This document shows positions 719-57,421 of a stretch of 57,583 nt of DNA, piece after piece. The notes beneath the pieces are model-generated. The model was not told the origin of the DNA. It was given only the letters and a program-made list of their open reading frames with translations, and searched no databases. This stretch comes from Lachnospiraceae bacterium. GTDB taxonomy: Bacteria > Bacillota > Clostridia > Lachnospirales > Lachnospiraceae. The stretch covers positions 1-57,583 of the forward strand of contig JAGCVY010000077.1 in NCBI GenBank assembly GCA_017962105.1. Direction: 5' to 3'. Position numbers and translations under genes: made by a program. How positions within the stretch are numbered: the stretch's first letter is position 1; every line of letters starts with the position of its first letter.

Positions 719-856
719 CTCATTTTCCGTATTCTGTTTTTTCCCTTGAAAAATGCTTCCGAACATATCCTTTAACGCTGTTCCTGTGAGAATGCATCCA
801 CTGTTTTGCACACTGTCACATATTCCAAAAAAGTCAATATCATTCACCTTTAAAAG

Positions 857-899
857 TAAAAATATTCGGGATGCCGGGGCAATTTTGCCCGGAACCCCG
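857..899 (-). terminator. ssrA terminator
   Basis: GC-rich interrupted hairpin centred on GGGCAAAATTGCCC with outer CGGG/CCCG pairing, followed on the minus strand by AATATTTTTAC. It begins about 17 nt after the 3' end of tmRNA. Confidence 0.65.
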
Positions 900-915
900 A
901 AAAATAATGTCCGTA

Positions 916-1269
916 TGGACCTGAGGGGAGTCGAACCCCTGTCCGAATGCCCATTCATTGCAGTTTCTCCCATTACAGACCACCGATCCGGCTTGCGCCC
1001 GTTCCCTCCTCCGTGCGCCGATGATCGGGCTCACGGACTCAGTAGCTTCATGATACGCCCACGCGGGCAAAGCTTATCGCGTGTCGTTTCCCGCGTAGAT
1101 GATGCCGGTTGACCGTTGCGCGGGTGCCGCGGGCCGACAGCTGCCTAATTAGGCAGCAAGTGCAAAACTATTGTCTGCGTTTATATTTAGGTTTTCCGGT
1201 TATTTACATGGTCCGGTACATGAATGGCTTCCACAACTTCAAAACACCCGTCGAAACCGGTACAAGCCC
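916..1269 (-). ncRNA. ssrA: tmRNA (ssrA)
   Basis: Rescues stalled ribosomes and tags nascent proteins. The tRNA-like 3' end has a T-arm with loop TTCGACT in a 5-bp AGGGG/CCCCT stem. The 3' acceptor strand CAGGTCC plus discriminator A (916) pairs with the 5' strand GGGCTTG at 1263-1269. CCA is not encoded. The conserved CCGGTTTCGACGGG follows the 5' end. The tag reading frame, 1178 down to 1149, encodes ADNSFALAA then TAA, preceded by the usual AAAC before the GCA resume codon. The inferred mature length is 354 nt, normal for a one-piece tmRNA. The ends are set by acceptor pairing, not by experiment. Confidence 0.95.
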
Positions 1270-1301
1270 GGAAAACAAGGGCAATCTCAGATTGCCTGCA
1301 C

Positions 1302-1330
1302 AATATACCGCGTTTTCGCTGCAAAGTCAA
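1302..1330 (-). promoter_or_regulatory. ssrA promoter
   Basis: Near-consensus sigma-A promoter on the minus strand: TTGACT (1325-1330), 17-nt spacer, TATATT (1302-1307). Between the predicted start and the mature tmRNA end lies a 7-bp hairpin GCAATCT-C-AGATTGC (1281-1295), probably in the pre-tmRNA leader removed by RNase P. Confidence 0.85.
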
Positions 1331-1345
1331 GTGGTATTCCTCTTT

Positions 1346-1595: not shown

Positions 1596-2774
1596 TTATT
1601 TCGTTTTCTTCGGTTTGGAAAGCCGCACTCCGCACTTGGCACAGATGGTTACTCCTGGAAGATTCTCAAAACCGCAGGAGGGACATTTTTTCTTGATGTA
1701 CCCGCGGCATTTTACGCAGATGGTGGCCCCCGGCTCGTTCACATATCCGCATTCGCAGTATCTGCTTTTCGGAGACCTGTGGGTAACGCCGATCCGGAGA
1801 GGTGACCCGCAGTTTCTGCAGGATGTTACTCCCGGAGGATTCTCGGTCCAGCAGGTAAGGCAGCGGGTTTTTCCCCGGGTAACGCCGGCGGCGGTTCCCC
1901 GAAGCTTCGACTGTTCGATCCGCTCCTGTTCCTCCTGTTTTGCGCGTTCCTCTTCTTTCAGGTCCATCTGACCGTTGTTGAAGATGTAATGGAAGGTATC
2001 CGTCCAAAAGCCGCCCCCACCTCTGTTACTATCCGGATCATAGACACCCCCGACCCTGGGAACCAGCCCGCAGACCGGACAGGTCATAGTATTCCACGGC
2101 ACCGAAGTACCACAGCCCTGGCACTGGATCGTTTGGGACCGCAGCTCCTTAAAGACATCATAACCGGCCTCTCTGTTCCTGCGTTTCTTATTCTTCGACT
2201 GCAAAGGGACCCCGCAGGATTCACAGGAAGTGGCAGTGCTCGGATTATCATGCCAGCAGCTTCGGCATCGTATCTTCCCATTCGGAACCGGATTGTTGGG
2301 GGTTCTGTTGGGGACAACCTTCGGTATGATCGCTTGTGCCGGAGTCCCTTCCACCGGTTCCTCCTCGGGCATGTCACGCCGCAGCGGAAAGCCGCAGAAT
2401 TCACAGGAAAATGCATCCTCCGGATTATCATGCCAGCACTTACGGCACCGGACCATCCCGTTCGGCACCGGATTGTCCGGGGTTTGGTTCGGCATTACCT
2501 TCGGCAGCAGGTCCTCCCTGGTAGGAGTCGTGTAATCCCCCTCCGCCTCGGGATACGGAACATACCCTAACGGCATACCGCAGACTTCACAAAACTCATT
2601 TTCGGCCGGATTGGAGTGCCAGCAATACGCACAGCGGATCCGTTTTTCCGTGTTCGGATCAAGGATCGGTTCCGTGGTCTTCGCAAGCGGGTCCTCTTTG
2701 GGAAGAAATTCCCCGCAGTGTTCGCAAACGACAGCATAAGCCGGATTTTCCGTACCGCATTTCGGGCAGCGCAT
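1596..2774 (-). CDS. Multi-zinc-ribbon protein of unknown function
   Basis: 392 residues that are almost entirely a string of eight short zinc ribbons of the CxxC...CxxC type. They lie at about residues 3-20, 48-65, 110-127, 170-187, 218-235, 305-322, 340-356 and 364-381. The seventh has a compressed first knuckle (CEC). Ribbons three and four sit in a duplicated module: both are preceded by a PKV-P-N-TP-NPVPNG linker and carry CWHDNP. A charged helix (about 270-295, rich in K, E and Q) separates the last three. There are no membrane segments. SD GGAGAG and an extended -10 lie upstream. Such proteins may bind partners or RNA, but no function is assigned. The last ribbons are the source of the decayed copy downstream. 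Confidence 0.8.
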   Translation of the reverse strand: MRCPKCGTENPAYAVVCEHCGEFLPKEDPLAKTTEPILDPNTEKRIRCAYCWHSNPAENEFCEVCGMPLGYVPYPEAEGDYTTPTREDLLPKVMPNQTPDNPVPNGMVRCRKCWHDNPEDAFSCEFCGFPLRRDMPEEEPVEGTPAQAIIPKVVPNRTPNNPVPNGKIRCRSCWHDNPSTATSCESCGVPLQSKNKKRRNREAGYDVFKELRSQTIQCQGCGTSVPWNTMTCPVCGLVPRVGGVYDPDSNRGGGGFWTDTFHYIFNNGQMDLKEEERAKQEEQERIEQSKLRGTAAGVTRGKTRCLTCWTENPPGVTSCRNCGSPLRIGVTHRSPKSRYCECGYVNEPGATICVKCRGYIKKKCPSCGFENLPGVTICAKCGVRLSKPKKTK

Positions 2775-2823: not shown

Positions 2824-3813
2824 CGAAGACGCCTCGGTGTCAATGTGATTTACCATCATTTCTCCTGGCCGGTACTTTTCCAGTTCGGCAAGCATTAGCC
2901 TGATCAGTTTCCTCTCTCCGAGGATCAGCACTAAAATAAAAGCCAGCAGCGGGACCGTCAAAGCAATGCTTACCAGCCACATCTCCGTGATTCCCTCTGC
3001 GATTCCGATCATTGCAGCATAAAAGCGTGCTCTATGCTCATGCTTCGCTCTCTCCGTCTCATCTTCATCCTCCCAGTCTTCCATCTCAACGTCAATCTGT
3101 TTATTCCATTTTGACGTCGTTCCGTAGCCTGTGGCAACGGCAATCGCCGCGACCATAAGGACATACAGGGCAAGGAGCACGGAGAGCTTACGGCACAGTT
3201 TTTTCCATGCAGAGGACAGATCACCGCTGTACCCTTCCGTAAAATGAGCCATGGCCGACCAATAGGTTCTCACGGCGTACACATTCAGGACAAAGATTGT
3301 GATCATAAAGATCAACAGCCACCCCGACCATTGTCCGGAGACGAACGGCATCCGGGAGATGATGGCCGAGACCAGGATCACAACGGAAAGCAGCAACAGG
3401 ATCACCGGTGTCCGAAATCGTCTGTCGCATACGATCAGGCTCAAAAAACGGTCGATGTAGACACAATCCGTTATTATCATCAGGACGATGACTGCATACC
3501 AGGCCCAGTTCTGTAGATATGCAAAGGGAAAGAACACGATTACTGACACGGCGATCGCTGCCATGATGATCTCGAGAATGACCGGACTCTTTGTCAGAAC
3601 CTGACGGGCCACGGCGGCCCCTCTTTGCTTCTGCTCCTCATCGGACAATTCCGGTTTGGCTTCCGCTTCCCTTTCGCGCTCACGAACTCCCGCCCGCAGC
3701 TGCCGGATCATCACGACAAGGCCGGCCAACGCTGCGAGGCCCAATACCACAGTGAGAACGATCGGCAGCATCGTGTCGTTTCCCGCAGTACCCGCTAAAA
3801 TTTCGATATTCAT
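2821..3813 (-). CDS. Polytopic membrane protein, function unknown
   Basis: 330 residues with about seven predicted hydrophobic segments, near 16-36, 78-98, 104-122, 137-155, 164-182, 210-228 and 268-298. A charged cytoplasmic-type loop, REREREAEAKPELSDEEQK, lies at 45-63. An acidic stretch, DVEMEDWEDEDETER, lies around 241-255. I do not recognise the family. The start ATG at 3813 follows a strong AAAGGAGG SD. A terminator-like hairpin lies only 25 nt upstream of the start, with a promoter above it, so expression may be attenuated. It is transcribed in the same direction as the fab operon but apparently separately. Confidence 0.8.
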   Translation of the reverse strand: MNIEILAGTAGNDTMLPIVLTVVLGLAALAGLVVMIRQLRAGVREREREAEAKPELSDEEQKQRGAAVARQVLTKSPVILEIIMAAIAVSVIVFFPFAYLQNWAWYAVIVLMIITDCVYIDRFLSLIVCDRRFRTPVILLLLSVVILVSAIISRMPFVSGQWSGWLLIFMITIFVLNVYAVRTYWSAMAHFTEGYSGDLSSAWKKLCRKLSVLLALYVLMVAAIAVATGYGTTSKWNKQIDVEMEDWEDEDETERAKHEHRARFYAAMIGIAEGITEMWLVSIALTVPLLAFILVLILGERKLIRLMLAELEKYRPGEMMVNHIDTEASS

Positions 3814-3832
3814 ACCGTCCTCCTTTGATACG

Positions 3833-3870
3833 AAAAATGCCTCCCGGTATCAAGGATGATACAAGGAGGC
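3833..3870 (-). terminator. Terminator of the fab/acc operon, doubling as leader hairpin
   Basis: Minus-strand hairpin with arms GCCTCC/GGAGGC and inner GTATC/GATAC (3839-3870), followed by ATTTTTC. It lies about 115 nt after the acyl-CoA synthetase stop codon. It also falls inside the probable leader of the next gene, because a promoter lies upstream of it at 3932-3960. Confidence 0.7.
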
Positions 3871-3985: not shown

Positions 3986-5653
3986 CTACCGGCATTTGGA
4001 GGCAGCCGCTGCATCCGCTTCCCGGATTGCCGCCCGGTTGATCTTACCGTTGGAAGTATGGGGAAGGGAGTCCACGTAAGCAATGATCCGGGGATATTTG
4101 TAGATTGCGCCGTGGGTTTTCACAAACTCCTGAAGCTCCGTTGTGAGGGCGGGATCCCCGGTGTAACCGTCGCGTAAAACGATGCTCGCTTTCACAACCA
4201 TTCCGCGGGTTTTGGACGGATATCCGGTCACGGCGCAGGAGGCTACCGAGGGATGCTGCAGAAGAAGGTCCTCCACTTCCGACGGACCGATCCGGTATCC
4301 GCTTGATTTTATGACGTCGTCGGTTCTTCCGACGAAGAAGAAGTGTCCGGCACCGTCGCGTCTTGCCCGGTCGCCGGTGTGGTAGATGCCGCCTCGCCAG
4401 GCCTCTTCATACCGCCCGGTATCGTTTAAGTACCCGCAGAACACGCCGATCGGGCGCTTTCCGTTCCTAGGCAGGATGACAAGCTCCCCCTCCTCCCCTG
4501 CGGGCACAGGTTCGCAGGTCTCGTTGACCACGGCAATATCATACAGCGGGGAGGCTTTCCCGATGGAACCGGGAACCGGAACATCCCCTGCCGGCGTACA
4601 GATCTGAAGCGCCGTCTCGGTCTGCCCGAACCCGTCCCGGACCGTCACTCCGGTTGCCTCCGCGAACTTCCCTGCCACCGATTCCGGCATCGGTTCCCCT
4701 GCGGTGGTTGCACACTTTAAGTGTGACCAGTCATAGTCCGACAGATCCTCCAGAACAAGATACTTGTAGATTGTGGGCGGTGCGCAGAAAGTGTTGACCT
4801 TATATGCCGTGAGCAGTGCAAGAAACTCCCCTGCATAAAACCGGTCGTAGTCATACACAAGGATCCGTGCGCCGAGGAACCACTGGCCGTACAGCTTTCC
4901 CCACGCAGTTTTCGCCCATCCGGAATCCGCCACCGTGAGGTGCAGGTCTCCGTCCTCAATCCCATGCCACCGCTTCGCCGTGTAGATGTGCGCGATCGGA
5001 TAGGACCAGTCGTGGATCACGGCCTTCGGCGTGCCGTCCGTGCCCGACGTAAAATAGTAAAGCATCGGATCGGCGGCGTCCGTCTGCACCCGCTTCCACT
5101 CCGTTTGATCCGCGGAGGCCTGTGTCATCAACTCATCCCAAAACAGGAAGCCGTCATATTTCTCCCCGACGGAAATGACGGCAATCTCCCGCCTGTTCGC
5201 TGCCTCCTCCACCTTCTCGCAGATGTGCTCGGACCGGACGCAGATGACGGCTTTCACATCCGCGGTTTTGATCCTCTCGGCGATGTCCTCCGCGGACACC
5301 ATATGGGAAGTGGGAACCGCGATCGCCCCGAGCTTGTGAAGCGCAAGCATCGAGATCCAAAACTCGTACCGGCGCTTCAAAAGAAGCATCACTGCGGTTC
5401 CCCGCCCGATCCCGAGTTCGGAAAATGCCTTCGCTGCCGTGTCGGACAACCGCTTCAGATCGCCGAAGGAAAACCTTGTAAAGGTCCCGTCCAAAGCGAT
5501 GTGAACCATCGCCGGCTTATCCGAACATTCCTCCGCAAACCGGTCGATGACATCATACGCAAAATTAAAATGAGGAGGGACCTGCGTCTCAATCCTCATT
5601 ACGGTTCCGTCTTCAGAAAGAATTTCGTGATAATACTCCTTGTAGAAGTCCAT
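3986..5653 (-). CDS. AMP-forming acyl-CoA synthetase (medium-chain/acetyl-CoA synthetase-like)
   Basis: Activates a carboxylic acid through an acyl-adenylate to its CoA thioester. 555 residues from ATG 5653, chosen because GGGAG precedes it; an upstream ATG at 5692 has no SD. The adenylation core motif FTSGTDGTPKA is present, then GFGQTET, then the hinge TGDRARRDGAGHFFFVGRTDD. The C-terminal catalytic lysine lies in SNGKINR. The overall pattern fits the AcsM/Acs side of the ANL superfamily rather than long-chain FadD. It follows accA by 77 nt with no terminator between, so it is probably the last gene of the fatty-acid operon. The substrate cannot be read from the sequence. It might recycle or supply short acyl groups for priming. 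Confidence 0.85.
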   Translation of the reverse strand: MDFYKEYYHEILSEDGTVMRIETQVPPHFNFAYDVIDRFAEECSDKPAMVHIALDGTFTRFSFGDLKRLSDTAAKAFSELGIGRGTAVMLLLKRRYEFWISMLALHKLGAIAVPTSHMVSAEDIAERIKTADVKAVICVRSEHICEKVEEAANRREIAVISVGEKYDGFLFWDELMTQASADQTEWKRVQTDAADPMLYYFTSGTDGTPKAVIHDWSYPIAHIYTAKRWHGIEDGDLHLTVADSGWAKTAWGKLYGQWFLGARILVYDYDRFYAGEFLALLTAYKVNTFCAPPTIYKYLVLEDLSDYDWSHLKCATTAGEPMPESVAGKFAEATGVTVRDGFGQTETALQICTPAGDVPVPGSIGKASPLYDIAVVNETCEPVPAGEEGELVILPRNGKRPIGVFCGYLNDTGRYEEAWRGGIYHTGDRARRDGAGHFFFVGRTDDVIKSSGYRIGPSEVEDLLLQHPSVASCAVTGYPSKTRGMVVKASIVLRDGYTGDPALTTELQEFVKTHGAIYKYPRIIAYVDSLPHTSNGKINRAAIREADAAAASKCR

Positions 5654-5730: not shown

Positions 5731-6486
5731 TCAATACCCGGCGGTCCGAAACTTCCGGTACCGGGTCTCCAGCAGTTCGGTGAAGGTCATTTTCCGAAGT
5801 TCCGTCAGCTCCGCGGTGATATCCGCCGCCAGTGCCTTCGGATCGCCGGCTTTGCAGATTCGGTCGATCAGCTGAAGCCTCCGCAGTTTCGGCGCCGTCA
5901 GTGCAAGCGCCTCGGCTGCCTCGTTGGCCCGTGCGGTATCCTTCCAAAGGATGTTGGCACAGCTCTCCGGTGAAACGACGCTTAAGTACGCATCCTCCAT
6001 CATCCAGATGCGGTCGGAATGGCAAAGAGCAAGCGCCCCGCCGCTTCCGCCTTCCCCGAGGATCACCGACAAGATCGGTGTCCGCAGGGTGGACATCTTC
6101 GCCAGGTTGTCCGCGATCGCCCGTCCCTGTCCGTGCTCTTCCGCGTCGACTCCGCAAAATGCCCCCGCCGTGTCCACAAGACAGACGACAGGTCTGCGAA
6201 ATTTCTCCGCCTGCTGCATGAGACGGAGCGCCTTGCGGTATCCTTCCGGATGAGCGCTTCCGAAGTTGTGCCGGATCCGCTCCTCCGTTGTCTTTCCCTT
6301 TTCCAGGGCGATCAGGGTGACCGGGATCTTTCCGATCGTTCCGATCCCTCCGATGACTGCGGCATCATCCCCGCAGAGCCGGTCTCCGTGAAGTTCCATA
6401 AAGTCAGGGGCCAGTTTTGCGATATAATCCGATGCAGTCAGCCGACCTTCCCTATGGGCCGCCGTCACAATATCATAATCCGCCAT
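5731..6486 (-). CDS. accA: Acetyl-CoA carboxylase carboxyltransferase subunit alpha
   Basis: With AccD, transfers the carboxyl group from biotin to acetyl-CoA, giving malonyl-CoA. 251 residues, compact as in Clostridia. It shows the crotonase-like carboxyltransferase signatures LVDTAGAFCG and ILGEGGSGGALAL, the latter forming the oxyanion-hole region. The start follows the accD stop by 3 nt, so the two are translationally coupled. It is part of the operon acpP through accA on the minus strand. Confidence 0.97.
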   Translation of the reverse strand: MADYDIVTAAHREGRLTASDYIAKLAPDFMELHGDRLCGDDAAVIGGIGTIGKIPVTLIALEKGKTTEERIRHNFGSAHPEGYRKALRLMQQAEKFRRPVVCLVDTAGAFCGVDAEEHGQGRAIADNLAKMSTLRTPILSVILGEGGSGGALALCHSDRIWMMEDAYLSVVSPESCANILWKDTARANEAAEALALTAPKLRRLQLIDRICKAGDPKALAADITAELTELRKMTFTELLETRYRKFRTAGY

Positions 6487-7320: not shown

Positions 7321-8654
7321 TGTCTCTGCAATACCTCCTCCGCGATGCCGGTGTCATACCTGCCCCGCACGAAGGTCGTATCCTCCATAAACTTCATGTG
7401 CATCTCCCGGTTGTTGGAGACGCCGGCAAGGACCAGCTCCGAGAGCGCGCACTTCATTTTCCGTATCGCAGCCTCCCGGCTGTCAGCCCCCACGATCAGC
7501 TTGCCGAGCATGGAATCGTAGAACGGCGTCACCGTGCAGCCTGCGTACACCGCCGTGTCAAAGCGCACATCCGCGCCACCCGGCACGTGCAGCATCGTCA
7601 CCGTCCCCGAAGCCGGCAGAAAATTCTTTCCGGATTCCGCGCAGATGCGGCATTCGATGGCGTGTCTCCCGACTCGGACCATATCCTGCGTATACGGCAG
7701 GGCTGCCCCGGCAGCCGTTCGGATCTGCCACTCAACAATATCGATCCCGGTGGCCATCTCCGTGACGGAGTGTTCCACCTGAAGCCGTGTGTTCATCTCA
7801 AGAAACCAGTATTCTTCCCCCTTCACAAGGAACTCCACCGTACCGGCCGTCACGTATCCCACTGCTTTCGCGAGTTCCTCCGCAGCGCTCCAGAGGTTCC
7901 TCCGAAGCCCGTCGGAAATCTCCGGCGCGGGACACTCCTCGATCAGTTTCTGGTTTCTCCTCTGCACCGAGCAGTCCCGGTCGCCGAGCACCAGAACCTT
8001 ACCGTTGCGGTCCGCGAGGATCTGCACTTCCACATGGCGCACCCCCTCGAGGTAGTGCTCCATATAGATTCCGTCATCGCCGAAGGCGCTTTTTGCCTCG
8101 AGGCATACCGCCTCCCATGCTGACGGAATCTCCTCGGGAGCCCGCACAACGCGGATCCCCTTGCCGCCTCCGCCGAGTCTTGCCTTCAGCATCACCGGGT
8201 ACCCGAGCTCCGTGGCCGCAGAAGCCGCTTCTTCCGCATCCTCAAGGATCTCACTGCCCGCGGTCACCGGCAGCCCAGCCTTTTTGGCGATGGCTCTGGC
8301 CGTCTCCTTCTGCCCCATGGACTCAATGACTTCCGCGGAGGGTCCGACCAGGATGATGCCGTTTTTCTCACACCTGCGGGCAAATTCCGCATTTTCCGCG
8401 AGCATTCCGTACCCCGGGTGGATCGCGTCCGCACCCACGGCCAGCGCCAGCGTGAGGATCGCATCCATGTTCAGGTAACTCCCGCTTGCCTGCGGTCCGC
8501 CGATGCAGAAGCTTTCGTCCGCCATGCTCACCGGGAGGGATTCCGCATCCGCCTCGGAGTACACGGCCACCGTCTCGATCCCCATCTCCTTACAGGCCCG
8601 GATCACCCGCACGGCCACCTCGCCGCGGTTAGCAATCAACAGTTTTGCGAACAT
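7317..8654 (-). CDS. accC: Biotin carboxylase subunit of acetyl-CoA carboxylase
   Basis: ATP-dependent carboxylation of biotin on AccB. 445 residues, the usual family length. The start ATG at 8654 gives MFAKLLIANRGEVAVRVIRA, the canonical N terminus, and AAGGAG lies 7 nt upstream. A longer in-frame extension to 8777 has no family support. The ATP-grasp glycine loop ARLGGGGKGIR and the signature EMNTRLQVEHSVTE are present. The 5' end overlaps fabZ by 19 nt and the 3' end overlaps accD by 4 nt. Confidence 0.97.
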   Translation of the reverse strand: MFAKLLIANRGEVAVRVIRACKEMGIETVAVYSEADAESLPVSMADESFCIGGPQASGSYLNMDAILTLALAVGADAIHPGYGMLAENAEFARRCEKNGIILVGPSAEVIESMGQKETARAIAKKAGLPVTAGSEILEDAEEAASAATELGYPVMLKARLGGGGKGIRVVRAPEEIPSAWEAVCLEAKSAFGDDGIYMEHYLEGVRHVEVQILADRNGKVLVLGDRDCSVQRRNQKLIEECPAPEISDGLRRNLWSAAEELAKAVGYVTAGTVEFLVKGEEYWFLEMNTRLQVEHSVTEMATGIDIVEWQIRTAAGAALPYTQDMVRVGRHAIECRICAESGKNFLPASGTVTMLHVPGGADVRFDTAVYAGCTVTPFYDSMLGKLIVGADSREAAIRKMKCALSELVLAGVSNNREMHMKFMEDTTFVRGRYDTGIAEEVLQRQ

Positions 8655-9079
8655 CCGTCTCTCCTTGTTACCGCAAATGACAAATCCCCGCCGGAGCACA
8701 GCCGCTCCCCGACCCGAAGCTCCGCATGCACCGTGTACAGCGGAGGGCAGCTGCGAAGCGGTTTCACCGTGATACACACCGTGTCGCCCGGCTTCACCAT
8801 GCCGCGGAATCTCGCCTTGTCGATCCCCGTATACACGGCAAGCGCATCCTTCTCCTTCAGAGCGTCTGCAAAAAGCACGCAGGAAGCCTGCGCCATCATT
8901 TCACACTGGATCACTCCCGGCACGATCGGATTGTCCGGAAAATGTCCCTGCAGAAAGAACTCGTCCCCCCGCACGGTGTACTTCGCCTCCGCCATGCCGT
9001 CCCCCGTGAGAACCGCCTCGTCAAGCAGGAGCATGGGCTCCCTGTGCGGAAGTATGGTTTTGATCTCGTCCCGATTCAT
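8636..9079 (-). CDS. fabZ: 3-hydroxyacyl-[ACP] dehydratase FabZ
   Basis: Dehydrates 3-hydroxyacyl-ACP in each elongation cycle. 147 residues from ATG 9079 (GGGGGA upstream). The hot-dog fold active-site motif HFPDNPIVPGVIQCEMMAQ is present, with its His and the downstream Glu. Its position between accB and accC is the standard clostridial order. No fabA or fabM is seen in the window, so any unsaturated-fatty-acid route lies elsewhere or is absent. Confidence 0.96.
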   Translation of the reverse strand: MNRDEIKTILPHREPMLLLDEAVLTGDGMAEAKYTVRGDEFFLQGHFPDNPIVPGVIQCEMMAQASCVLFADALKEKDALAVYTGIDKARFRGMVKPGDTVCITVKPLRSCPPLYTVHAELRVGERLCSGGDLSFAVTRRDGCSQNC

Positions 9080-9140: not shown

Positions 9141-9587
9141 TCAGCTCAACACGATGATGTCCTGATGGTACTCGACAAGAGCTCCCTCATCCGCCAGGAT
9201 CTCTGCGATCACGCCGTCCCGCGGCGCCGTCACTTCGTTCATCATCTTCATGGCCTCAATGGTACAGACTGCCTCCCCGCGGCTCACATGATCGCCGACC
9301 GACACTGTTCTGCCGTTGCCCGTCGCATGGAAAATGCCGAGAAGCGGCGCCTTGATGATATCGCCCTGTCTCGGAGCACTTCCGGTTTCCGCTTCGGCAG
9401 GCCGTGCCGCGACGCCGGCTTCTTCTGATGGCTCGGTAACCGCCGTACCTTCACTCTTCGCCGAAGCCGCATTCCGGCCGGCACAGGGTTCTTTTCTTAA
9501 GACCAGTTTCCTCTCGCCGTCCTCCACCTGCAGTTCGGTCAGCCCGAGCCGCTCAAAAACATCCGCGTATTCCTGCAATGTATTCAT
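9141..9587 (-). CDS. accB: Biotin carboxyl carrier protein of acetyl-CoA carboxylase
   Basis: 148 residues. The N-terminal helix domain (1-32) is joined by an Ala/Glu/Pro-rich linker (about 35-72) to the biotinyl domain. The biotin-accepting Lys114 is in EAMKMMNE. The start is 3 nt after the fabF stop, so it is tightly coupled. It shuttles carboxybiotin between AccC and AccAD. Confidence 0.97.
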   Translation of the reverse strand: MNTLQEYADVFERLGLTELQVEDGERKLVLRKEPCAGRNAASAKSEGTAVTEPSEEAGVAARPAEAETGSAPRQGDIIKAPLLGIFHATGNGRTVSVGDHVSRGEAVCTIEAMKMMNEVTAPRDGVIAEILADEGALVEYHQDIIVLS

Positions 9588-15179: not shown

Positions 15180-16610
<1,431 letters not shown>

Positions 16611-20902: not shown

Positions 20903-20955
20903 CTTAAAAAGCGGAAATCCATCGGGTTTTCGGGACATTCTTCCTTCGGAAAATG

Positions 20956-22466: not shown

Positions 22467-22508
22467 AGTGACAAATTCTCCCCATAGAACCGACATTTTC
22501 CGAAGGAT

Positions 22509-31005: not shown

Positions 31006-31073
31006 CAAACCCGCGGAAAATACTTCATTTTTCGAAAAAAACTTGCGTTCCGCGGGGCCATTTTCCGCATTTC

Positions 31074-31102: not shown

Positions 31103-31203
31103 ACAGGGGATAATTCGCCGGAAAATGTACCGGCGGCGCAGCTTTCAATGCCCTCGGGCCGTGGCTGCAACGCATGACTCGGAACCTTGGGGGAGGAACA
31201 TTC

Positions 31204-47422: not shown

Positions 47423-50011
47423 TCAGATGCCGACATACTCGTTATTCTCAAAGCGACCCTTGCGGACACGCCCGTTGGCGTACTTCATGACTCCCTCTCC
47501 GTGTCTCTTGTCATCCTTCCAGCCGCCTTCATAGCTGTCGCCGGTGGACCAGCGGAACACGCCGTATCCGCAGCGCACTCCGTGCTCAAACTCACCCTCG
47601 TAGCTGCTTCCGTTCGTGTAGGTGAACACACCGTTGCCGTGAGGCAGATTCTTGTCGTCCACTTCACCTTCGTAACGGTTTCCGCTCTTATAGTTGATAC
47701 TCTTGGTTTCCTTCACCGGAGCTGCGATGACCGGAGCAGACTCCACAGCATTCTCCGCAGCCTGAACCGCCTCGGAAGCCTCGTTTCCGGCAGCTTCAAC
47801 GGCTTCTGCTGCCTCTGCGACAGTGTTCTCTGCGGCCTGTACGGCTGTCTCCACCGCGTTCTCCACGGTCTGTGCAGCTTCCTCGACCGCATTCTCAGCG
47901 GTCTGTGCAGCTTCCCCGGCCACATTCTCAGCAGCCTGTGCGGTCTCAACAGCATTCTCTGCAGTCTGTACGGCTTCCTCTGCAACATTCTCTGCGGTTT
48001 GCGCTGTCTCAGCTGCATTTTCCGCAGTCTCTGCCGCCTCGGCCGCCTCCGCTTCAACGGTGAACGGATCGTCCACGATCTCCGCGAAGACCTTCTTGCC
48101 GCCTTCCCAAACCTGCGCTTCCTTTGCGCCGTTGGCGTAGATCAGCACACCGGTACCGTCGCGCTTGCCGCCCTTCCAGTTTCCGATGTAGGTGTTGCCG
48201 TTGCTGAACTGGTAGGAACCGTGGCCCTCAAAGGTACCGCCCTCGAAGTTGCCCTCGTATACTTCCCCGTTGGCCTGGACGAAACGTCCCTGACCGGACT
48301 TGATGCTGTTCTCCCAGTTGCCTTCGTAACGGCTTCCCGCCGCGTAGGTCATGATGCCCTGTCCGTGGCGCTTGCCCATATTGTAGCCGCCCTCGTATAC
48401 ATCGCCGTTCTGGTATTCCATGCGGCCGACGCCGTGGCGCTTACCGTTCACGAAATCGCCGGTGTAATGTTCGCCGTTGGCATAGGTCTCCTCATGGTAC
48501 CCGGTCTTCGTAACAGGGTCATAAGGTTTCTTCTCTTCCTGCGGTTTCTCCTCCGCTGCGGCCTCCACCGCAGCAGCAACCGTTTCCGCCGCTGTCTCCG
48601 CAGCATTTTCCGCCGTTTTGGCGACGGTCTCCGCCACATTGGCAGAAGCTTCCGCAACGGTCTCCGCCGTCTCAGCCGCGGTCTCCGCAGCTTCGCTCAC
48701 CTCCGCTGCAGGCGTAGGAGCAACCATGCCGAGCTTCGCAAAATAACTCTGCATCGCGCGGTCCTCCAAGGTCTTCTCGTCAACCTGAGGCTCCTCCACC
48801 TTCTTCTCCCGAAGCTCCTCGGGGATCGGCTTGCCGATGCTCTCGTACATGCCGCTCAAAATCTTCGAATTGGCATTTTCCTTTCTGTCATCCGAAGTGT
48901 CAACAAAACTGGATTCAATCATTGCTGCAGCCCCCTCGCTGTCTTCCATATCCGCATCCACCGCATTCTCCGGTGCCGTGGACGCTGTATTCCCCGGTAA
49001 ATCCATATCCTGGAAACTCTCCCCGAGTTCCTCCTCGGCCGGCTTCTGCTCCCCGTGCAGATCGATATCCGACACGCTGTCATCCAGGACAACCAATGTC
49101 TGCGCTGCTGCCTCAGCCATCCGCTTGGCAAGCGCATCCGCCTCATCCTCAAGATCCCCGTTCATGTCGGAACCGTCAAATCCGTTGCCCCGGAACACCG
49201 GTCTCGCAACGGATTTCCGTGTGGGCTCCGCACGCTGGGAAGTCTTCTTCGCAATGTTCGGCGAATCCTCCATTCCTGCGAAGAGAAGGGGTGCCCCCTC
49301 ATCCTCCTCGACGGCTGCCAGCTCCTCGCGAGCCAGCGTGTTCCAAATGCTGTCCAAAGACTCGTCCGGCGGAAGCTCGGTGTTCTGCTGACGCCATGCG
49401 CGGTCCTCCTCTTCCTCGAGGGGATTCTCCGCAAGCGCCCGCTGCTCCTGCTCCGCAAGAAACTGTGCGATCTGCTCCTCCGTAGGCGTCTCGCGAAATG
49501 CGCAGATTCCGTTGACCCAGTATCCTTCCTCCGCATGTCCGTCGCGGAAATACATCTTTCCCATGCCGTTGGGCATGTCGTCGCTCCACTCACCCTCATA
49601 CTCGCGTCCGTCGCCGAAGATGACGCGTCCGCTGGTGAAGCGGCCGTCCTTATAATATCCTTCCAAAAGGTTTCCGCCGGGAAGCGACTCCTCGCCGTAG
49701 CCTTCGTATTTGTCATTCACCCACTCGCCGTCATAGTAAGCATCGTTACGGAAAATGAGCTTGCCCTTGCCGTGGCGCATTCCGTCCTTGAAATCGCCTT
49801 TGTACGACTTCCGGGAATCATGCTCGTTGTAAGTGAGCTCGCCCTTACCGTTCGGGATCCCGTTCCGCGCCTTGCCGACATAGCGGCCTTCCGGAAGCAG
49901 AATCTCAAGGTCGTTGGCGACATCTTTGTTCTGCGTATTCATCTTAAAGCGGCATTTGACACACAATCCGTCACCGCCGGCTCTGTTTTCCTTGCAGATC
50001 ATACAATACAT
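47423..50011 (-). CDS. Large MORN-repeat protein with zinc ribbon and 11-residue amphipathic repeats
   Basis: 862 residues. N-terminal zinc ribbon Cys3/Cys6/Cys17/Cys20. About five MORN repeats follow (roughly 40-165), then an acidic, low-complexity region (170-430). An Ala/Glu/Thr helix-forming stretch (about 430-495) precedes about six MORN repeats (roughly 500-640, e.g. YEGGYNMGKRHGQG). A second long 11-residue repeat region (about 654-755, units like EEAVQTAENAV) is followed by four C-terminal MORN repeats (e.g. YEGEFEHGVRCGYG). MORN motifs commonly associate with membranes, and 11-residue repeats form amphipathic helices. A scaffold at the inner membrane is an inference. No signal peptide. 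Confidence 0.85.
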   Translation of the reverse strand: MYCMICKENRAGGDGLCVKCRFKMNTQNKDVANDLEILLPEGRYVGKARNGIPNGKGELTYNEHDSRKSYKGDFKDGMRHGKGKLIFRNDAYYDGEWVNDKYEGYGEESLPGGNLLEGYYKDGRFTSGRVIFGDGREYEGEWSDDMPNGMGKMYFRDGHAEEGYWVNGICAFRETPTEEQIAQFLAEQEQRALAENPLEEEEDRAWRQQNTELPPDESLDSIWNTLAREELAAVEEDEGAPLLFAGMEDSPNIAKKTSQRAEPTRKSVARPVFRGNGFDGSDMNGDLEDEADALAKRMAEAAAQTLVVLDDSVSDIDLHGEQKPAEEELGESFQDMDLPGNTASTAPENAVDADMEDSEGAAAMIESSFVDTSDDRKENANSKILSGMYESIGKPIPEELREKKVEEPQVDEKTLEDRAMQSYFAKLGMVAPTPAAEVSEAAETAAETAETVAEASANVAETVAKTAENAAETAAETVAAAVEAAAEEKPQEEKKPYDPVTKTGYHEETYANGEHYTGDFVNGKRHGVGRMEYQNGDVYEGGYNMGKRHGQGIMTYAAGSRYEGNWENSIKSGQGRFVQANGEVYEGNFEGGTFEGHGSYQFSNGNTYIGNWKGGKRDGTGVLIYANGAKEAQVWEGGKKVFAEIVDDPFTVEAEAAEAAETAENAAETAQTAENVAEEAVQTAENAVETAQAAENVAGEAAQTAENAVEEAAQTVENAVETAVQAAENTVAEAAEAVEAAGNEASEAVQAAENAVESAPVIAAPVKETKSINYKSGNRYEGEVDDKNLPHGNGVFTYTNGSSYEGEFEHGVRCGYGVFRWSTGDSYEGGWKDDKRHGEGVMKYANGRVRKGRFENNEYVGI

Positions 50012-50554: not shown

Positions 50555-51256
50555 TCATTTTACGGACGCGGAACGGATTTCCAGTACCGTCAGGGTTTCC
50601 CCGTCAACGGAGAATGCAACCTCGCAGTCCCCGTAGCGCATCCCGTACCGTCTCTGCGGGTCATCCTGATAAGCCGGCCGGGGATCTGCGTCCAAAACTT
50701 CCGAAAGAGCCCTAAGCCAGCGGTCATCCTTGCCGATGGTCCGGGCCTCCGCATTCACGCTGTCGGGAATCGTTACCGAAAGTCGGTAGGACGCGTGCTC
50801 GTCGGCAAATCCGCCCACGGCATCCGGAACACTGTCCGCGTAGGGCACATAAGGTTTGATATCGTAGATCGGCGTGCCGTTCATCAGGTCGGCCCCGCTC
50901 ACGATCAGCTCCGGTCCGTCCGCTGTCTCCTCCACCCGGAGCAGCCTGACAACCGTAAGGCCCAGGGAATTCGGCCGGAACGGCGACCTCGTGGCCCAGA
51001 CGCCGACGCGGGTGTTCCCGCCGAGCCTCGGCGGCCGCACGGTCGCCTGAAAGGATTCCCCCTTAGGGGTCTCCGAGAACTCCCAGATCAGCCAGAGATG
51101 GGAAAAAGCCTCGATTCCGCGGAAGGCGTCCGCAGTACCGTAAGGCTTTTCAAAGACAATCCGGCTCTCCACTCCGCTCGCGATGCCGCTCTGGCGCGGG
51201 ATACCGAATTTGTCGGTATAATCATTGTGAATTACGGCGATTTTCCGAATCTCCAT
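50555..51256 (-). CDS. trmO: tRNA (N6-threonylcarbamoyladenosine37-N6)-methyltransferase TrmO
   Basis: Methylates t6A37 of threonine tRNAs. 233 residues from ATG 51256 (GGAGT upstream). YaeB/UPF0066 signatures: FGIPRQSGIA, FSHLWLIWEF, RPPRLGGNTRVGVWATRSPFRPNSLGLT and the later IYDIKPYVPYADS. It lies right next to a tRNA-Thr gene, its expected substrate, which may be chance. It follows rlmB by 13 nt. Confidence 0.93.
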   Translation of the reverse strand: MEIRKIAVIHNDYTDKFGIPRQSGIASGVESRIVFEKPYGTADAFRGIEAFSHLWLIWEFSETPKGESFQATVRPPRLGGNTRVGVWATRSPFRPNSLGLTVVRLLRVEETADGPELIVSGADLMNGTPIYDIKPYVPYADSVPDAVGGFADEHASYRLSVTIPDSVNAEARTIGKDDRWLRALSEVLDADPRPAYQDDPQRRYGMRYGDCEVAFSVDGETLTVLEIRSASVK

Positions 51257-52019: not shown

Positions 52020-52057
52020 AGTATTCCCTCATTTCGGAAAATGTCCCACTGCGGCCA

Positions 52058-52559: not shown

Positions 52560-54020
52560 TTACTGCGAGATAATCTCCCAGACAACGCCCTCACGGGTGT
52601 CCTTGATCTGAACGCCCTTCGCAAGAAGCTCGCCGCGGATCGCATCCGCAGTCGCAAAATCCTTGGCTTTCTTCGCCTCGGCGCGCTTTGCGATCATCTC
52701 CTCAATCCAGGCGGTAAGCTCGCCGTCCGCAGCAGGCTCCGTCTCCGGAAGAGGCTCAGTAAGGCTTAAGCCGAGAACCTCGTCGAAACTCTTTGCAAGT
52801 GCGAACTTGGTGGCGTCACTGAGGTCCGCCTTGAGCATATCGTAGAGAACCGTGATGGCGGAAGCCGTGTTGATATCGTTGCAGAGTGCTTCCTCGAACT
52901 GTGCGCGGTACTTTGCAAATGCGACCGCGTCAACGCCCTTCGTAAATGCCTCAACGACCGCGGAACCGCCCTCTGCGGCTGCAGCGCCGAGAGACGAAAT
53001 CCGGCGGCGCAGTTTCTCATATGCCGTCTTCACCTGGTCCATAACCTCATAGGAGAACTCAAGAGGCTTTCTGTAGTGCGACTGCAGGCAGAACATTCGA
53101 TATACAAGCGGATCGTAACCGTTCTCCTCCAACACGGACACGGTCAGGAACGCTCCCTTGCTCTTGCTCATCTTGCCGGAGCGGTCGTTCAGGTGATGCA
53201 CATGGAACCAGTAGTTGCACCATTTGTGGCCGAGGTAGGACTCGGACTGCGCAATCTCGTTGGTATGATGCGGGAAAATGTTGTCCACGCCGCCGCAGTG
53301 GATATCCATGTACTCCCCGAGGTGCTTCATGCTGATGCAGGAGCACTCGATATGCCAGCCGGGATAACCGACGCCCCACGGGCTGTCCCACTTCAGAGCC
53401 TGATCCTCAAACTTGGACTTTGTGAACCAGAGCACGAAATCGTTTTTGTTCTTCTTGTTCGTATCGATATCGACGTCGTCGCGCACGCCCTCGAGAAGCG
53501 ATTCCTCGCTGTGGTTCGTGAGCACGTAATACTCTTTGAGTTTCGAGGTGTCAAAATACACGTTCTCGCCTGCGCGGTAAGCATATCCCTTCTCAAGAAG
53601 CACCTCGATCATGTGGATGAACTCCGGAATGCAGTTCGTCGCCGGCTCCACAACATCAGGCGTCTTGATATTCAGTTTTGCACAGTCTGCGAAAAATGCG
53701 TCCGTGTAGAACTTGGCAATCTCCATCACCGTCTTGTGCTCTCTCTTGGCGCCGGCAATCATCTTGTCCTCGCCGGTGTCGGCATCGCTGGAGAGATGTC
53801 CCACGTCGGTGATGTTCATGACTCGCTTCACATCGTAGCCGATGTAGCGAAGGGTCTTCTCCAGCACATCCTCCATCATGTAGCTGCGCAGATTTCCGAT
53901 GTGCGCGAAATGATACACCGTCGGTCCGCAGGTGTACATCGCCACCTTCCCCGGAACGTTCGGGACGAATTTTTCGACCCGGCGGGTCAGGGTGTTATAT
54001 AAATTCAACTTGTCTTCCAT
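52560..54020 (-). CDS. cysS: Cysteinyl-tRNA synthetase
   Basis: Class I synthetase, 486 residues. CGPTVYHFAHIGNLRSY carries the HIGN version of HIGH. Zinc ligands lie in ECSCISMKH and DIHCGGVDN. KMSKSKG is intact. GGAGAA precedes ATG 54020. It leads the cysS-mrnC-rlmB-trmO unit. Confidence 0.97.
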   Translation of the reverse strand: MEDKLNLYNTLTRRVEKFVPNVPGKVAMYTCGPTVYHFAHIGNLRSYMMEDVLEKTLRYIGYDVKRVMNITDVGHLSSDADTGEDKMIAGAKREHKTVMEIAKFYTDAFFADCAKLNIKTPDVVEPATNCIPEFIHMIEVLLEKGYAYRAGENVYFDTSKLKEYYVLTNHSEESLLEGVRDDVDIDTNKKNKNDFVLWFTKSKFEDQALKWDSPWGVGYPGWHIECSCISMKHLGEYMDIHCGGVDNIFPHHTNEIAQSESYLGHKWCNYWFHVHHLNDRSGKMSKSKGAFLTVSVLEENGYDPLVYRMFCLQSHYRKPLEFSYEVMDQVKTAYEKLRRRISSLGAAAAEGGSAVVEAFTKGVDAVAFAKYRAQFEEALCNDINTASAITVLYDMLKADLSDATKFALAKSFDEVLGLSLTEPLPETEPAADGELTAWIEEMIAKRAEAKKAKDFATADAIRGELLAKGVQIKDTREGVVWEIISQ

Positions 54021-54070: not shown

Positions 54071-54898
54071 TCAAAGTCCAAGCATCCGGATGTACTCCGG
54101 CAGTGCCAGCTCGAATTTCACTCCGTACCAGTGCTTCGGGTCGCCGACCGTCTTCTCGATACAGAGCACCGTGTAATCGGCTGCGATCCTTGCCGCTTCC
54201 TGCTCGTTGAAACCCTGCATCAGCGCTCCGGTGAACGCCGAGGCGTACACATCGCCGGTACCGTGACAGCCGGTCTCCAACTTCTTGTGCTCATAGTAGG
54301 TGGACACACCCTCCACGTTGATCACGACGCCCGTATATCCCGGACGGTAGGAAACCCCGGTGAGGATGATGGTCTTCGCGCCGAGCTCGTGCATTTTCCG
54401 AAGAAGGTCTTCGATAAAAACACGGTCGTAAACCTCGCGGTACGGAGTATGGGTCATCATACAGGCCTCGGTAATGTTCGGCAGCGTGATATCCGCCTCC
54501 CAACAGAGCTTCGCCATCTCCGCGGCGTAGGTTTCGTCAAATCCGACATACAGCTTGCCGTTGTCCGCCATTGCGGGATCCACGATCTTAAGGCCCTTAC
54601 AGTGCGCCGTGAAAATATCCCGCACATACCCGATCTGCTGAACGCTTCCGAGGTATCCGGTGTAGATACAGTCGAAGGAAATCTTCTCCTTCTTCCACTG
54701 AGCGCTGATCTTCGGCATATCGTCCGAGAGATCGCGGAAGGTAAATCCGGTAAAACCCGCCGTGTGGTTCGAGAGAACCGCCGACGGGAGAATACAGGTC
54801 TCCGTCCCCGACGCCGAAAGGATCGGCAGCGCAACCGTGAGGGAGCACTGTCCCACGCACGAAATGTCCTGGATTGTCAACACTCTTTTGTATGCCAT
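54071..54898 (-). CDS. Pyridoxamine/pyridoxal kinase (PdxY-like)
   Basis: Salvage phosphorylation of vitamin B6. 275 residues from ATG 54898. Ribokinase-fold features: ISCVGQCSLT at the N terminus, DPAMADNGKLY, and the anion hole with catalytic Asp in GCHGTGDVYASAF. It is preceded by a promoter with a 21-bp imperfect palindrome, so it is likely regulated by a specific repressor or activator. Confidence 0.9.
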   Translation of the reverse strand: MAYKRVLTIQDISCVGQCSLTVALPILSASGTETCILPSAVLSNHTAGFTGFTFRDLSDDMPKISAQWKKEKISFDCIYTGYLGSVQQIGYVRDIFTAHCKGLKIVDPAMADNGKLYVGFDETYAAEMAKLCWEADITLPNITEACMMTHTPYREVYDRVFIEDLLRKMHELGAKTIILTGVSYRPGYTGVVINVEGVSTYYEHKKLETGCHGTGDVYASAFTGALMQGFNEQEAARIAADYTVLCIEKTVGDPKHWYGVKFELALPEYIRMLGL

Positions 54899-54940
54899 AA
54901 TTGCACCTTCCGTCTGCGAACCATGGAACCCGTTCGCTGT

Positions 54941-54968
54941 ATTATAGTTTGTGATACGATATCGCAAA
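54941..54968 (-). promoter_or_regulatory. Promoter and candidate operator of the pyridoxamine kinase gene
   Basis: TATAAT on the minus strand (54941-54946) is abutted by an imperfect palindrome, TTTGTGATA-N3-TATCGCAAA (54948-54968), with eight of nine arm positions matching. The dyad occupies the spacer region, where a bound regulator would block RNA polymerase. No good -35 was found at 17 nt. Confidence 0.55.
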
Positions 54969-55019
54969 TTACCGACTATGTCAATAGGTAATTGTCCTGC
55001 CCATGGTCTTCTGCCCGGG

Positions 55020-57374
55020 TCAGTCCTTCCAAACCTGTTGAAGAAGTTTTGCCATCTCGGTCATCGGCTTCTGTCCGCCCTGCTTTCCATTGGGCCGACG
55101 GTCGTTCCGATTCGCATTGTCGCGTCTTCCGTCCCCTTGTTTTTTCCCTTCGGGACGGCGGTTACCGGCATTCTCCTTTTTCGTCTCCTCAGGCTTTTTG
55201 CTGCCGGAAGCGCCCCTCACGGCGGCCTCCTCCGAGCGCATGGAAAGCTGGATCCTCTTCCGCTTCTCATCCACGGTGAGGACGCGCACATCCACGATGT
55301 CGCCGATCTTCACGACGTCGAGCGGATGCTTCACGAACTCATCCGATAGCTCGCTGATGTGCACCAGACCGTCCTGATGAACGCCGATGTCGACGAAAAC
55401 GCCGAAGTCGATGACGTTGCGGACCGTTCCCTTCAGGATCATTCCCGGCTTGAGGTCGGAGATTTCCAGCACATCGCTCCGCAGGATCGGCTTGGGCATA
55501 TCTTCTCTCGGGTCTCTCGAGGGTTTCTCCAGCTCGCCGATGATATCCGTAAGGGTAATCTCGCCGACACCGAGCTCCGCAGCCAGCGCCGCGGTGTCGC
55601 CCACCTTGGAGCGCATCCCCTTCGCACCGCCTGCCGCGATGTCATCCGCGGTATACCCGAGCTTCGTAAGGAGCGCGTAGGCCGCGGCATAGCTCTCGGG
55701 GTGCACGCCGGTGTTGTCCAGCACTTCCTTGCCCTCGCGGATGCGAAGGAACCCGGCGCACTGCTCGAAGGCCTTCGGCCCGAGCTTTGCAACCTTCAGA
55801 AGGTCCTTGCGGCTTTGGAAGCTGCCGTTCTCCTCCCGGTAGGTAACAATATTCTTGGCAAGCGTTTTGTTGATCCCGGAGACATACTCCAGGAGGGATA
55901 CGCTTGCGGTGTTTAGATCCACGCCAACGCGGTTCACGCAGTCCTCGACAACGCCGCCCAGATTTTCCGCCAGCTTCTTCTGGTTCATATCATGCTGGTA
56001 CTGTCCGACGCCGATGGCCTGCGGCTCGATCTTGACAAGCTCCGCCAGCGGATCCTGCAGTCTTCTCGCGATGGACGCCGCGCTTCTCGCACCGACGTCA
56101 AGCTGCGGGAACTCCTCCGTTGCCAGCTTGCTGGCCGAGTACACGGACGCTCCGGCCTCGTTGACGATCGCGTAGGATACGCGGTTCGGGATTTCCGAGA
56201 GAAGCTCTACGATGACCTTCTCGGACTCTCTCGAGGCGGTTCCGTTTCCGAGGGAAATGAGTTCCACGCCGAAGTGGTTTATGATCTTCCGAAGCATCAG
56301 CTTCGATTCCTCGATCTTGTTCTGGGGCTCGGTGGGATAGATGACCTTGGTGTACAGCACCTTGCCCGTCGCGTCCACAACCGCGAGCTTACAGCCCGTG
56401 CGGAACGCGGGGTCCCAGCCCAGCACAACCTTGCCCGTGATGGGCGGCTGCATCAGGAGCTGCTCCAGGTTCTTGTCGAACACCTTGATGGCGCCGTCCT
56501 CCGCGTCCTCCGTGAGCTTGTTCCGGATCTCGCGCTCGATGGACGGGGCGATCAGTCTCTGATACGCGTCCGCGATCGCCTCCTGCAGATACGGGGTCGT
56601 GTTCGGATTGTCCCGCACGATCACCTGCTTCTCAAGATATCGTAAAATGTCCTCCTCCGGAGCCTCGATGCGTACCGAAAGAACCTTTTCGTTTTCGCCG
56701 CGGTTCACGGCGAGCACGCGGTATCCGGTCATCTTGGCCACCGGCGAGGAAAATTCCTTGTACATGTCATAGACGGTGGGCTCTTCGCTCTTCGTCTTGG
56801 CTTCCGAAAACAGAACGCCCTTCTTGAAAGTGATGTCGCGGATATAGTTGCGGTAATCCGCGGAATCGCTCACGGACTCCGCCACAATGTCCATTGCGCC
56901 CTGGATTGCCTGCTTCACATCCGTCACGCCCTTCTCCTCGGAGAGGAACGCTTCCGCCTCGGTCTCCATGGTGTTCCCGGTCTCCTGGGCGATCAGGATC
57001 TCCGCCAGCCCGTCAAGGCCCTTTTCCTTCGCATCCGTTGCCCGGGTGCGTCTCTTCGGCCGGTACGGGCGGTACAGATCCTCCACGGCAACCATCGTGG
57101 TGGCTTCCTCGATGGCTTTGCGGAGTTCCTCGGTAAGCTTTCCCTGCTCCTCGATGGTCGCAAGCACCTGCTGCTTCTTCTCATCGAGATTCCGCAGGTA
57201 AGTAAGTCTCTCATGCAGGTCACGCAGTTGCTCATCGTTAAGCTGCCCCGTGGCCTCCTTGCGGTATCTGGCGATGAAGGGGATCGTATTTCCCTCATCA
57301 ATCAAAGTAACCGCGGCCTCGACCTGCGAGACCTTGATGTTCAGTTCATTCGCTATGGTTTGTGCAATCGTCAT
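55020..57374 (-). CDS. tex: RNA-binding transcription accessory protein Tex
   Basis: 784 residues from ATG 57374 (GGGGAG upstream). The N-terminal Tex helical domain starts IAQTIANELNIKVSQVEAAV. The YqgF-like nuclease fold has GWDPAFRTGCKLAVVD. Helix-hairpin-helix repeats follow (DLNTASVSLLEYVSGIN), then an S1 RNA-binding domain with FGVFVDIGVHQDGLVHISEL. The last 65 residues are a disordered, K/R/N/Q-rich tail not found in standard Tex. Located downstream of ispF. Confidence 0.94.
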   Translation of the reverse strand: MTIAQTIANELNIKVSQVEAAVTLIDEGNTIPFIARYRKEATGQLNDEQLRDLHERLTYLRNLDEKKQQVLATIEEQGKLTEELRKAIEEATTMVAVEDLYRPYRPKRRTRATDAKEKGLDGLAEILIAQETGNTMETEAEAFLSEEKGVTDVKQAIQGAMDIVAESVSDSADYRNYIRDITFKKGVLFSEAKTKSEEPTVYDMYKEFSSPVAKMTGYRVLAVNRGENEKVLSVRIEAPEEDILRYLEKQVIVRDNPNTTPYLQEAIADAYQRLIAPSIEREIRNKLTEDAEDGAIKVFDKNLEQLLMQPPITGKVVLGWDPAFRTGCKLAVVDATGKVLYTKVIYPTEPQNKIEESKLMLRKIINHFGVELISLGNGTASRESEKVIVELLSEIPNRVSYAIVNEAGASVYSASKLATEEFPQLDVGARSAASIARRLQDPLAELVKIEPQAIGVGQYQHDMNQKKLAENLGGVVEDCVNRVGVDLNTASVSLLEYVSGINKTLAKNIVTYREENGSFQSRKDLLKVAKLGPKAFEQCAGFLRIREGKEVLDNTGVHPESYAAAYALLTKLGYTADDIAAGGAKGMRSKVGDTAALAAELGVGEITLTDIIGELEKPSRDPREDMPKPILRSDVLEISDLKPGMILKGTVRNVIDFGVFVDIGVHQDGLVHISELSDEFVKHPLDVVKIGDIVDVRVLTVDEKRKRIQLSMRSEEAAVRGASGSKKPEETKKENAGNRRPEGKKQGDGRRDNANRNDRRPNGKQGGQKPMTEMAKLLQQVWKD

Positions 57375-57421
57375 GTAGGTTCTCTCCCCTGATTTTTCTG
57401 CATTTTCCGTATCTTCCGGCG

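Follow-up and report, generated by a model that had tools for sequence, protein, structure and literature searches.

Copies of an asymmetric octamer in the window

The window analyzed here is a whole stretch of 57,583 nucleotides from a member of the Lachnospiraceae, a major gut family, and corresponds to contig C35 of genome G000 (2,587,466 bases in 105 contigs). It carries genes resembling those for acyl-CoA synthetase and accC, together with atpD, atpA, rnpB, and a gene that joins FHA and FtsW domains. Scattered along it is the octamer GGAAAATG (Table 1). The first-pass annotation had counted 41 copies, 21 on one strand and 20 on the other. Our recount gave 42, 21 on each strand, compared with a mean of 2.60 and a maximum of 9 in 100 dinucleotide shuffles. 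The seven positions that had been named were all among the matches, the reading frames quoted for the copies at 5420, 8937, and 9329 were correct, and the preceding C described as frequent was found directly before 29 of the 42 copies.

Table 1. Matches to the iterated word and to variants of its core in the window
Match	Position	Strand	Remark
CGGAAAATG	721..729	-	
CGTAAAATG	1708..1716	-	core variant
GGAAAATG	2406..2413	+	no preceding C
CGTAAAATG	3238..3246	+	core variant
CGAAAAATG	3831..3839	+	core variant
CGGAAAATG	5419..5427	+	within acyl-CoA synthetase-like gene
CGGAAAATG	5788..5796	-	
CGCAAAATG	6153..6161	+	core variant
CGGAAAATG	7455..7463	-	within accC-like gene
CGGAAAATG	8390..8398	-	within accC-like gene
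CGGAAAATG	8936..8944	+	
GGAAAATG	9329..9336	+	no preceding C
CGGAAAATG	9944..9952	-	
CGGAAAATG	12506..12514	+	
CGGAAAATG	13875..13883	-	
CGGAAAATG	14010..14018	+	
CGGAAAATG	14903..14911	+	
GGAAAATG	15074..15081	+	no preceding C
CGGAAAATG	15236..15244	-	within atpD
CGGAAAATG	15823..15831	+	within atpD
CGGAAAATG	17387..17395	+	
CGGAAAATG	17599..17607	-	within atpA
GGAAAATG	18918..18925	+	no preceding C, within atpA
CGGAAAATG	20947..20955	+	just beyond 3' end of rnpB (RF00010 20981-21334, -)
CGGAAAATG	21349..21357	-	just upstream of rnpB (RF00010 20981-21334, -)
CGGAAAATG	22494..22502	-	
GGAAAATG	24458..24465	+	no preceding C
GGAAAATG	24972..24979	+	no preceding C
CGGAAAATG	28009..28017	+	
CGAAAAATG	31026..31034	-	core variant
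CGGAAAATG	31059..31067	-	intergenic, ahead of FHA-FtsW gene
CGGAAAATG	31119..31127	+	intergenic, ahead of FHA-FtsW gene
GGAAAATG	32736..32743	-	no preceding C
CGCAAAATG	36816..36824	+	core variant
GGAAAATG	38861..38868	-	no preceding C
GGAAAATG	39428..39435	+	no preceding C
CGGAAAATG	40684..40692	-	
CGAAAAATG	40825..40833	+	core variant
CGGAAAATG	42042..42050	+	
GGAAAATG	42228..42235	-	no preceding C
GGAAAATG	42670..42677	-	no preceding C
CGAAAAATG	45513..45521	-	core variant
CGGAAAATG	48016..48024	-	
CGGAAAATG	48604..48612	-	
GGAAAATG	48874..48881	-	no preceding C
CGGAAAATG	49749..49757	+	
CGTAAAATG	50556..50564	-	core variant
CGGAAAATG	52035..52043	+	
GGAAAATG	53273..53280	+	no preceding C
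CGAAAAATG	53690..53698	+	core variant
CGGAAAATG	54392..54400	-	
CGTAAAATG	56641..56649	+	core variant
CGGAAAATG	57401..57409	-	

Excess over composition and codon usage

The excess extended to the whole genome. G000 contains 789 + 789 copies of GGAAAATG, a strand split that rests on arbitrary contig orientation, compared with 19 + 15 copies of the reversed word, which served as control. The density is about 1 per kb, both for GGAAAATG (1,578 copies in 2.59 Mb) and for sites matching either CGGAAAAT or GGAAAATG (574 in 626.6 kb). Further statistics were obtained from a 410-kb sample of G000 with 338 called genes (368,550 bases). An order-3 Markov model predicted 30.7 copies of GGAAAATG in the sample, and 254 were observed. 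In coding DNA, GGAAAATG occurred 201 times and CGGAAAAT 242 times, compared with 20.8 and 26.2 after within-gene shuffling of synonymous codons, and these were the two most exceptional octamers under this shuffling. The coding copies occupied all three frames in both senses, with uneven use. Codon usage was thus ruled out as an explanation of the excess, as the first-pass annotation had argued, and neither a Markov expectation nor a codon pair, the outcomes that it had named against its own proposal, accounts for the counts. A maximal-order Markov model of the window expected 40.3 copies for the 42 observed, but its input already includes the 7-mers that make up the motif (GGAAAAT, 65; GAAAATG, 52). 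A Shine-Dalgarno sequence followed by ATG was rejected as the source of the word, being found in only 4 of the 338 genes. In intergenic DNA, CGGAAAATG was present 65 times compared with 2.67 expected from a second-order model, and the motif was about twofold denser there than in coding DNA (1.17 versus 0.55 per kb). No AT-rich segments were seen flanking the motif in this sample.

GGAAAATG and CGGAAAAT are overlapping views of one word. When wildcards were allowed, the best core in the coding DNA of G000 was CGNAAAATG (241 versus 26.2), which is asymmetric and non-palindromic and was the top core in G585 and G604 as well, but not in G599. Whether GGAAAATG is the top word had been proposed as a check; it is one of the two most exceptional octamers, but the form that describes the core best is CGNAAAATG. 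Within the core, the inner run of A and the T are strict and G2 is fairly strict, whereas positions 1, 3, 4, and 9 are variable. Near-misses such as CGGAAAAG were below expectation in G000 (9 versus 35) and mildly so in G585 (9 versus 15). For CGNAAAATG, perfect copies divided by one-off copies gave 0.29-0.40 in six species rich in the motif and 0.02-0.15 in three with low counts, with 0.042 expected by chance. The motif is real, specific, and either selected or driven.

Distribution, variants, and conservation

Among 398 genomes of the phylum, G000 alone had more than 574 copies of the motif. In 200 genomes of the family, six exceeded 1,000 copies, and three of these six are smaller than 3 Mb (G000, G585, and G486). 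Within the genus the number ranged from 221 to 1,763 across 22 genomes. Ten genomes with AtpD identities of 94-98% had 672-1,763 copies, and five with 81-84% had 449-863. G600, G611, and G609, in each of which only one AtpD-like copy of ~70-72% identity was found, had 221-374. G606, G615, and G605 (491, 625, and 767 copies) were excluded from this comparison because their AtpD is in pieces. One clade of the genus is rich in the motif, and its sister species have it more sparsely; as for the clade in which it occurs, a point raised earlier, the strong form is confined to this one and to scattered other genera. G000 itself has two AtpD-like beta subunits (C35:15183-16577 and C37:26399-27769), 71% identical in the matched part, and two such copies are present in many genomes of the genus.

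Variants of the word were found in other genera. A 53-kb sample of G470 yielded GGNCAATG (41 versus 8.4), and after this prediction the whole genome gave 1,142 + 1,160 copies (2,302) versus 81 + 81 (162). The same variant was enriched in G551 (586 + 585 versus 45 + 38), and in G000 it stood at 149 + 163 versus 100 + 87. In a 131-kb sample of G486 the variant was GGNAAATG (118 versus 22.8). In 48 further genomes, identified through named or MAG loci, the degenerate form GGNMAATG, counted in place of GGAAAATG or CGNAAAATG alone, was enriched no more than ~3.2-fold over control, so that none of these genomes was strong in it. Candidate dialects in G598, G611, and G600 were rejected as weak, with no dominant octamer in the samples.

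Conservation at orthologous sites, which had been suggested as a check, was found in all species compared. When the genes of the window were aligned with those of 15 species of the genus, all 15 had more identical codons at motif sites than a codon-matched background predicts; these comparisons, each with small numbers, are not mutually independent. Examples are G599, with 46 of 58 codons conserved compared with 30.0 expected, and G613, with 20 of 22 compared with 11.5. The excess was small in the distant group, as in G602 (11 of 18 versus 9.8).

Orientation and spacing

The two strands were used equally. With the leading strand approximated by the sign of the GC skew in each stretch, the G-richer strand carried 744 sites in nine motif-rich species and the opposite strand 726. 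Among these 1,470 sites (1.39 Mb), neighbors in the same orientation were depleted, with observed-to-expected (O/E) ratios of 0.59, 0.66, 0.60, 0.71, and 0.82 in bins from 9 to 800 bp and of 0.99-1.03 beyond. Inverted neighbors had an O/E of 1.80 at 9-60 bp (73 versus 40.6 expected) and of 0.92-1.06 from 60 bp on. The depletion was alike in G000 alone and in the other eight species pooled, which are not fully independent because some stretches are orthologous. Inverted pairs at 60-800 bp were in excess both inside a single gene (246 of 429) and between genes or in spacers (342 of 587). From 143 octamers with 200-900 copies, the 84 with at least 30 pairs were tested for their inverted fraction, which was 0.63 for ATTTTCCG and 0.57 for CATTTTCC compared with a median of 0.285. 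Ordinary octamers mostly had the opposite orientation bias, and the other top-ranked words largely overlap the motif. Because same-orientation copies are depleted up to ~800 bp and inverted ones are spared, the motif probably acts directionally. Each orientation would then be kept separately over a reach of several hundred base pairs, as expected of a directional reader.

The main rival explanation is a Chi-like site, i.e. a word that is read in one orientation by AddAB (or RecBCD), halts DNA degradation, and starts recombination repair. Chi is likewise a short, asymmetric word enriched throughout the genome, its close copies in one orientation are redundant by definition, and a directional site of this kind predicts the depletion up to ~800 bp. 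It also requires no pilus, so that G486, in which no PilM match and only a weak PilC-domain match were obtained, presents no problem for it. However, excerpts of PMC8022716 describe Chi as polarized on the leading strand, whereas the motif has no such polarity by the GC skew proxy (744:726); on this ground, polarized sites of the Chi or FtsK-orienting polar sequence type were rejected. The preference of the motif for non-coding DNA, its turnover within one genus with low counts in sister species, and its close inverted pairs argue in the same direction, and a Chi-like function is considered unlikely.

Neighboring pairs 16-60 bp apart were inverted in 30 of 35 cases within genes and in 14 of 24 cases in spacers. 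Terminators are not the reason for the close inverted pairs, since such pairs occur within genes; convergent genes had an intergenic density of 1.57 per kb (from 5 sites), compared with 1.72 for tandem and 2.29 for divergent arrangements. Template switching could generate these pairs. It forms part of another alternative, a clade-specific mutational or codon-context bias, for which the close inverted pairs in coding DNA and the mild, widespread excess of GGNMAATG can be cited. The survival of the motif excess in synonymous shuffles, its presence in all frames, on both strands, and in intergenic DNA, the orthologous conservation, and the same-orientation depletion make this explanation highly improbable.

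A total of 1.35 Mb from six species contained 11 copies of the palindrome CATTTTNCGNAAAATG, all but one of them intergenic. Among spacings of 0 to 20, that of 4 was favored: it occurred 11 times, each of the others 0-4 times. Such copies might represent an operator-like dimer site and, together with the spread of the motif over coding and intergenic DNA, would suit an iterated site of another protein (nucleoid-associated, defense, or methyltransferase) unconnected with uptake or recombination. Such a site would resemble highly iterated palindrome 1 (HIP1), a palindromic octamer that is scattered in many copies across the genes and spacers of cyanobacteria. The first-pass annotation had likened the word both to HIP-type motifs and to DNA uptake sequences. 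HIP1 itself does not fit because CGNAAAATG is asymmetric, and the palindrome CATTTTNCGNAAAATG is rare. The CATTTTNCGNAAAATG copies adjoin differing genes with no common pathway discernible by eye, on which basis a regulon operator was rejected, and orientation-specific redundancy is not expected of a passive binding site. We regard a site of this kind as unlikely.

Putative DNA uptake genes

Candidate competence genes, which the first-pass annotation had proposed to look for, were present in G000. Contig C92 carries a type IV pilus locus with PilB-, PilT-, and PilC-like proteins, two major-type pilins, a prepilin peptidase, PilM-like and PilN/O-like proteins, and minor pilins, one of which is GspH/FimT-like; five proteins at the locus have a prepilin motif. 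The gene names were assigned from sequence features, with profile matches to PF00482 and PF11104. ComEC was found as an uninterrupted frame, with a ComEA-like fragment nearby (by eye). It was detected in 58 of 61 genomes (G000 included) and in every one of 15 selected genomes, and G486 also has it. A strong PilC match was obtained in 17 of the 22 genomes of the genus. In the window, positions 55020-57374 encode a Tex-like protein with a ComEA-type helix-hairpin-helix and an S1 domain, which was not counted as a competence gene.

A possible uptake-sequence-like self tag

According to excerpts of PMC1626085, the uptake signal sequences (USS) of Pasteurellaceae and the DNA uptake sequences (DUS) of Neisseriaceae both occur about once per kb without orientation bias, are spaced with some regularity, include some inverted pairs lying close together, prefer non-coding DNA, are present in relatives, and have a very strong consensus. 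The motif has most of these published genomic hallmarks, namely a density of ~1 per kb, balanced strands, a preference for non-coding DNA, closely spaced inverted pairs, and variants in relatives, the exceptions being the overall regularity, which is marginal, and the excess of perfect over one-off copies, which is weaker. The earlier comparison with uptake sequences thus held for the distribution of the word, including its genome-wide excess, its occurrence in coding and non-coding DNA, its clade variants, and its conservation in orthologs. The motif resembles DUS as excerpted from PMC3630211 in being a short asymmetric word at ~1 per kb on balanced strands, with close inverted pairs, a type IV pilus, and dialects that follow phylogeny, of which the Neisseriaceae have eight. 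It differs in the word itself and the phylum, its inverted pairs are not tied to terminators, and no ComP-like receptor was identified for it. Like USS (PMC1626085, excerpts), it is similarly dense, balanced in orientation, more frequent in non-coding DNA, far above chance in perfect copies, and present in relatives, but it shows neither the AT-rich flanks nor the predominance of perfect copies. Polypurine octamers, described in excerpts of PMC2843746, are a different class of words.

The explanation we favor, with confidence evenly divided, is an uptake-sequence-like self tag with dialects. CGNAAAATG would be a genome-wide tag recognized by machinery that handles DNA, most probably the uptake path of type IV pilus and ComEC. 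Tagged DNA would be preferentially taken up and recombined, so that copies of both orientations accumulate and are maintained at ~1 per kb. The word, which is asymmetric, probably has its effect to one side only; within ~800 bp, a further copy oriented alike would then be redundant and less often kept, unlike a copy in the opposite orientation. Related genera would have shifted the recognized word, giving GGNAAATG and GGNCAATG as dialects.

Several observations weigh against the self tag. The machinery does not track the motif: pilus loci are also present in the low-motif G600, G611, and G609, and G600 and G611 have ComEC in addition. Only weak PilC-domain matches were obtained in 5 of the 22 genomes of the genus (assemblies of 100-380 contigs), three of which are motif-rich (G607, G603, and G614), and the motif-rich G486 had no PilM match and a weak PilC-domain match. 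Pilus presence therefore fails in both directions as a predictor of the motif, and the search for competence genes, which gave candidates in G000, did not separate it from its low-motif sisters. Because of these low-motif sisters and of G486, uptake is a process that we infer. The minor pilins of G000 are 30-58% identical to those of five other motif-rich species, which is unexpected of a dedicated receptor. With regard to the word, the consensus is strong, but one-off copies are more numerous than perfect ones (0.29-0.40, versus >1 reported for USS), and the depletion of CGGAAAAG was absent in G599 and G604 and clear only in G000. The coefficient of variation of the overall spacing was 0.935, and 4% of 1,000 simulations were as low, a marginal departure from randomness toward regularity. 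For the other dialects, G486 and G470, with 134 and 49 sites, offered too few for the same-orientation test. Motif-free mobile islands were sought and rejected: judged by eye, the genes in the longest gaps look ordinary, and the one plasmid-like stretch (G000 C20 2516-8883) has 3 motif sites in 6.4 kb instead of none.

Stated more broadly, the motif may, with equal chances of being right or wrong, represent a directional, sequence-specific code of DNA self-recognition with genus-level dialects in a Gram-positive family, one that arose separately from the uptake sequences of the Gram-negative Neisseriaceae and Pasteurellaceae and is perhaps served by a non-pilus reader in species lacking a pilus. 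Excerpts of PMC7811141 and PMC12040237 present uptake specificity as confined to two families or to the genera Neisseria and Haemophilus. No report of uptake sequences in Lachnospiraceae, Firmicutes, or Clostridia was found in the open-licence PMC literature, judged partly by title, and none on the word itself, judged by title; one Neisseria uptake-sequence paper, in the excerpts available, mentions Lachnospiraceae only for an NlaIV homologue. If the self tag is real, it would be a third case and would mean that self-tagging evolved again, that Lachnospiraceae exchange DNA by transformation, and that adding the tag could be a practical handle for transforming them. The same-orientation redundancy up to ~800 bp is a quantitative, sequence-only test of directional action that can be used on Haemophilus and Neisseria genomes.

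Additional observations

The FHA-FtsW gene of the window (31174-33012) encodes an FHA domain (approximately residues 72-152) fused N-terminally to an FtsW domain (237-565) and is directly followed by a gene for a PBP2-like transpeptidase (33009-34409). In G000, C20 2516-8883 has ParA-, ParB-, and replication-initiator-like genes (by eye) beside a chromosomal-looking gene. The 3.9-kb contig C36 has zero copies of the motif and a lipoprotein that looks Bacteroides-like by eye, and may be assembly contamination. Small samples of G448, G546, and G600 yielded the palindrome GAAGCTTC (22 versus 2.4, both strands), CAAATCCT (15 versus 1.9), and TTTGNAAGC (30 versus 5.3), which are possibly further iterated words.

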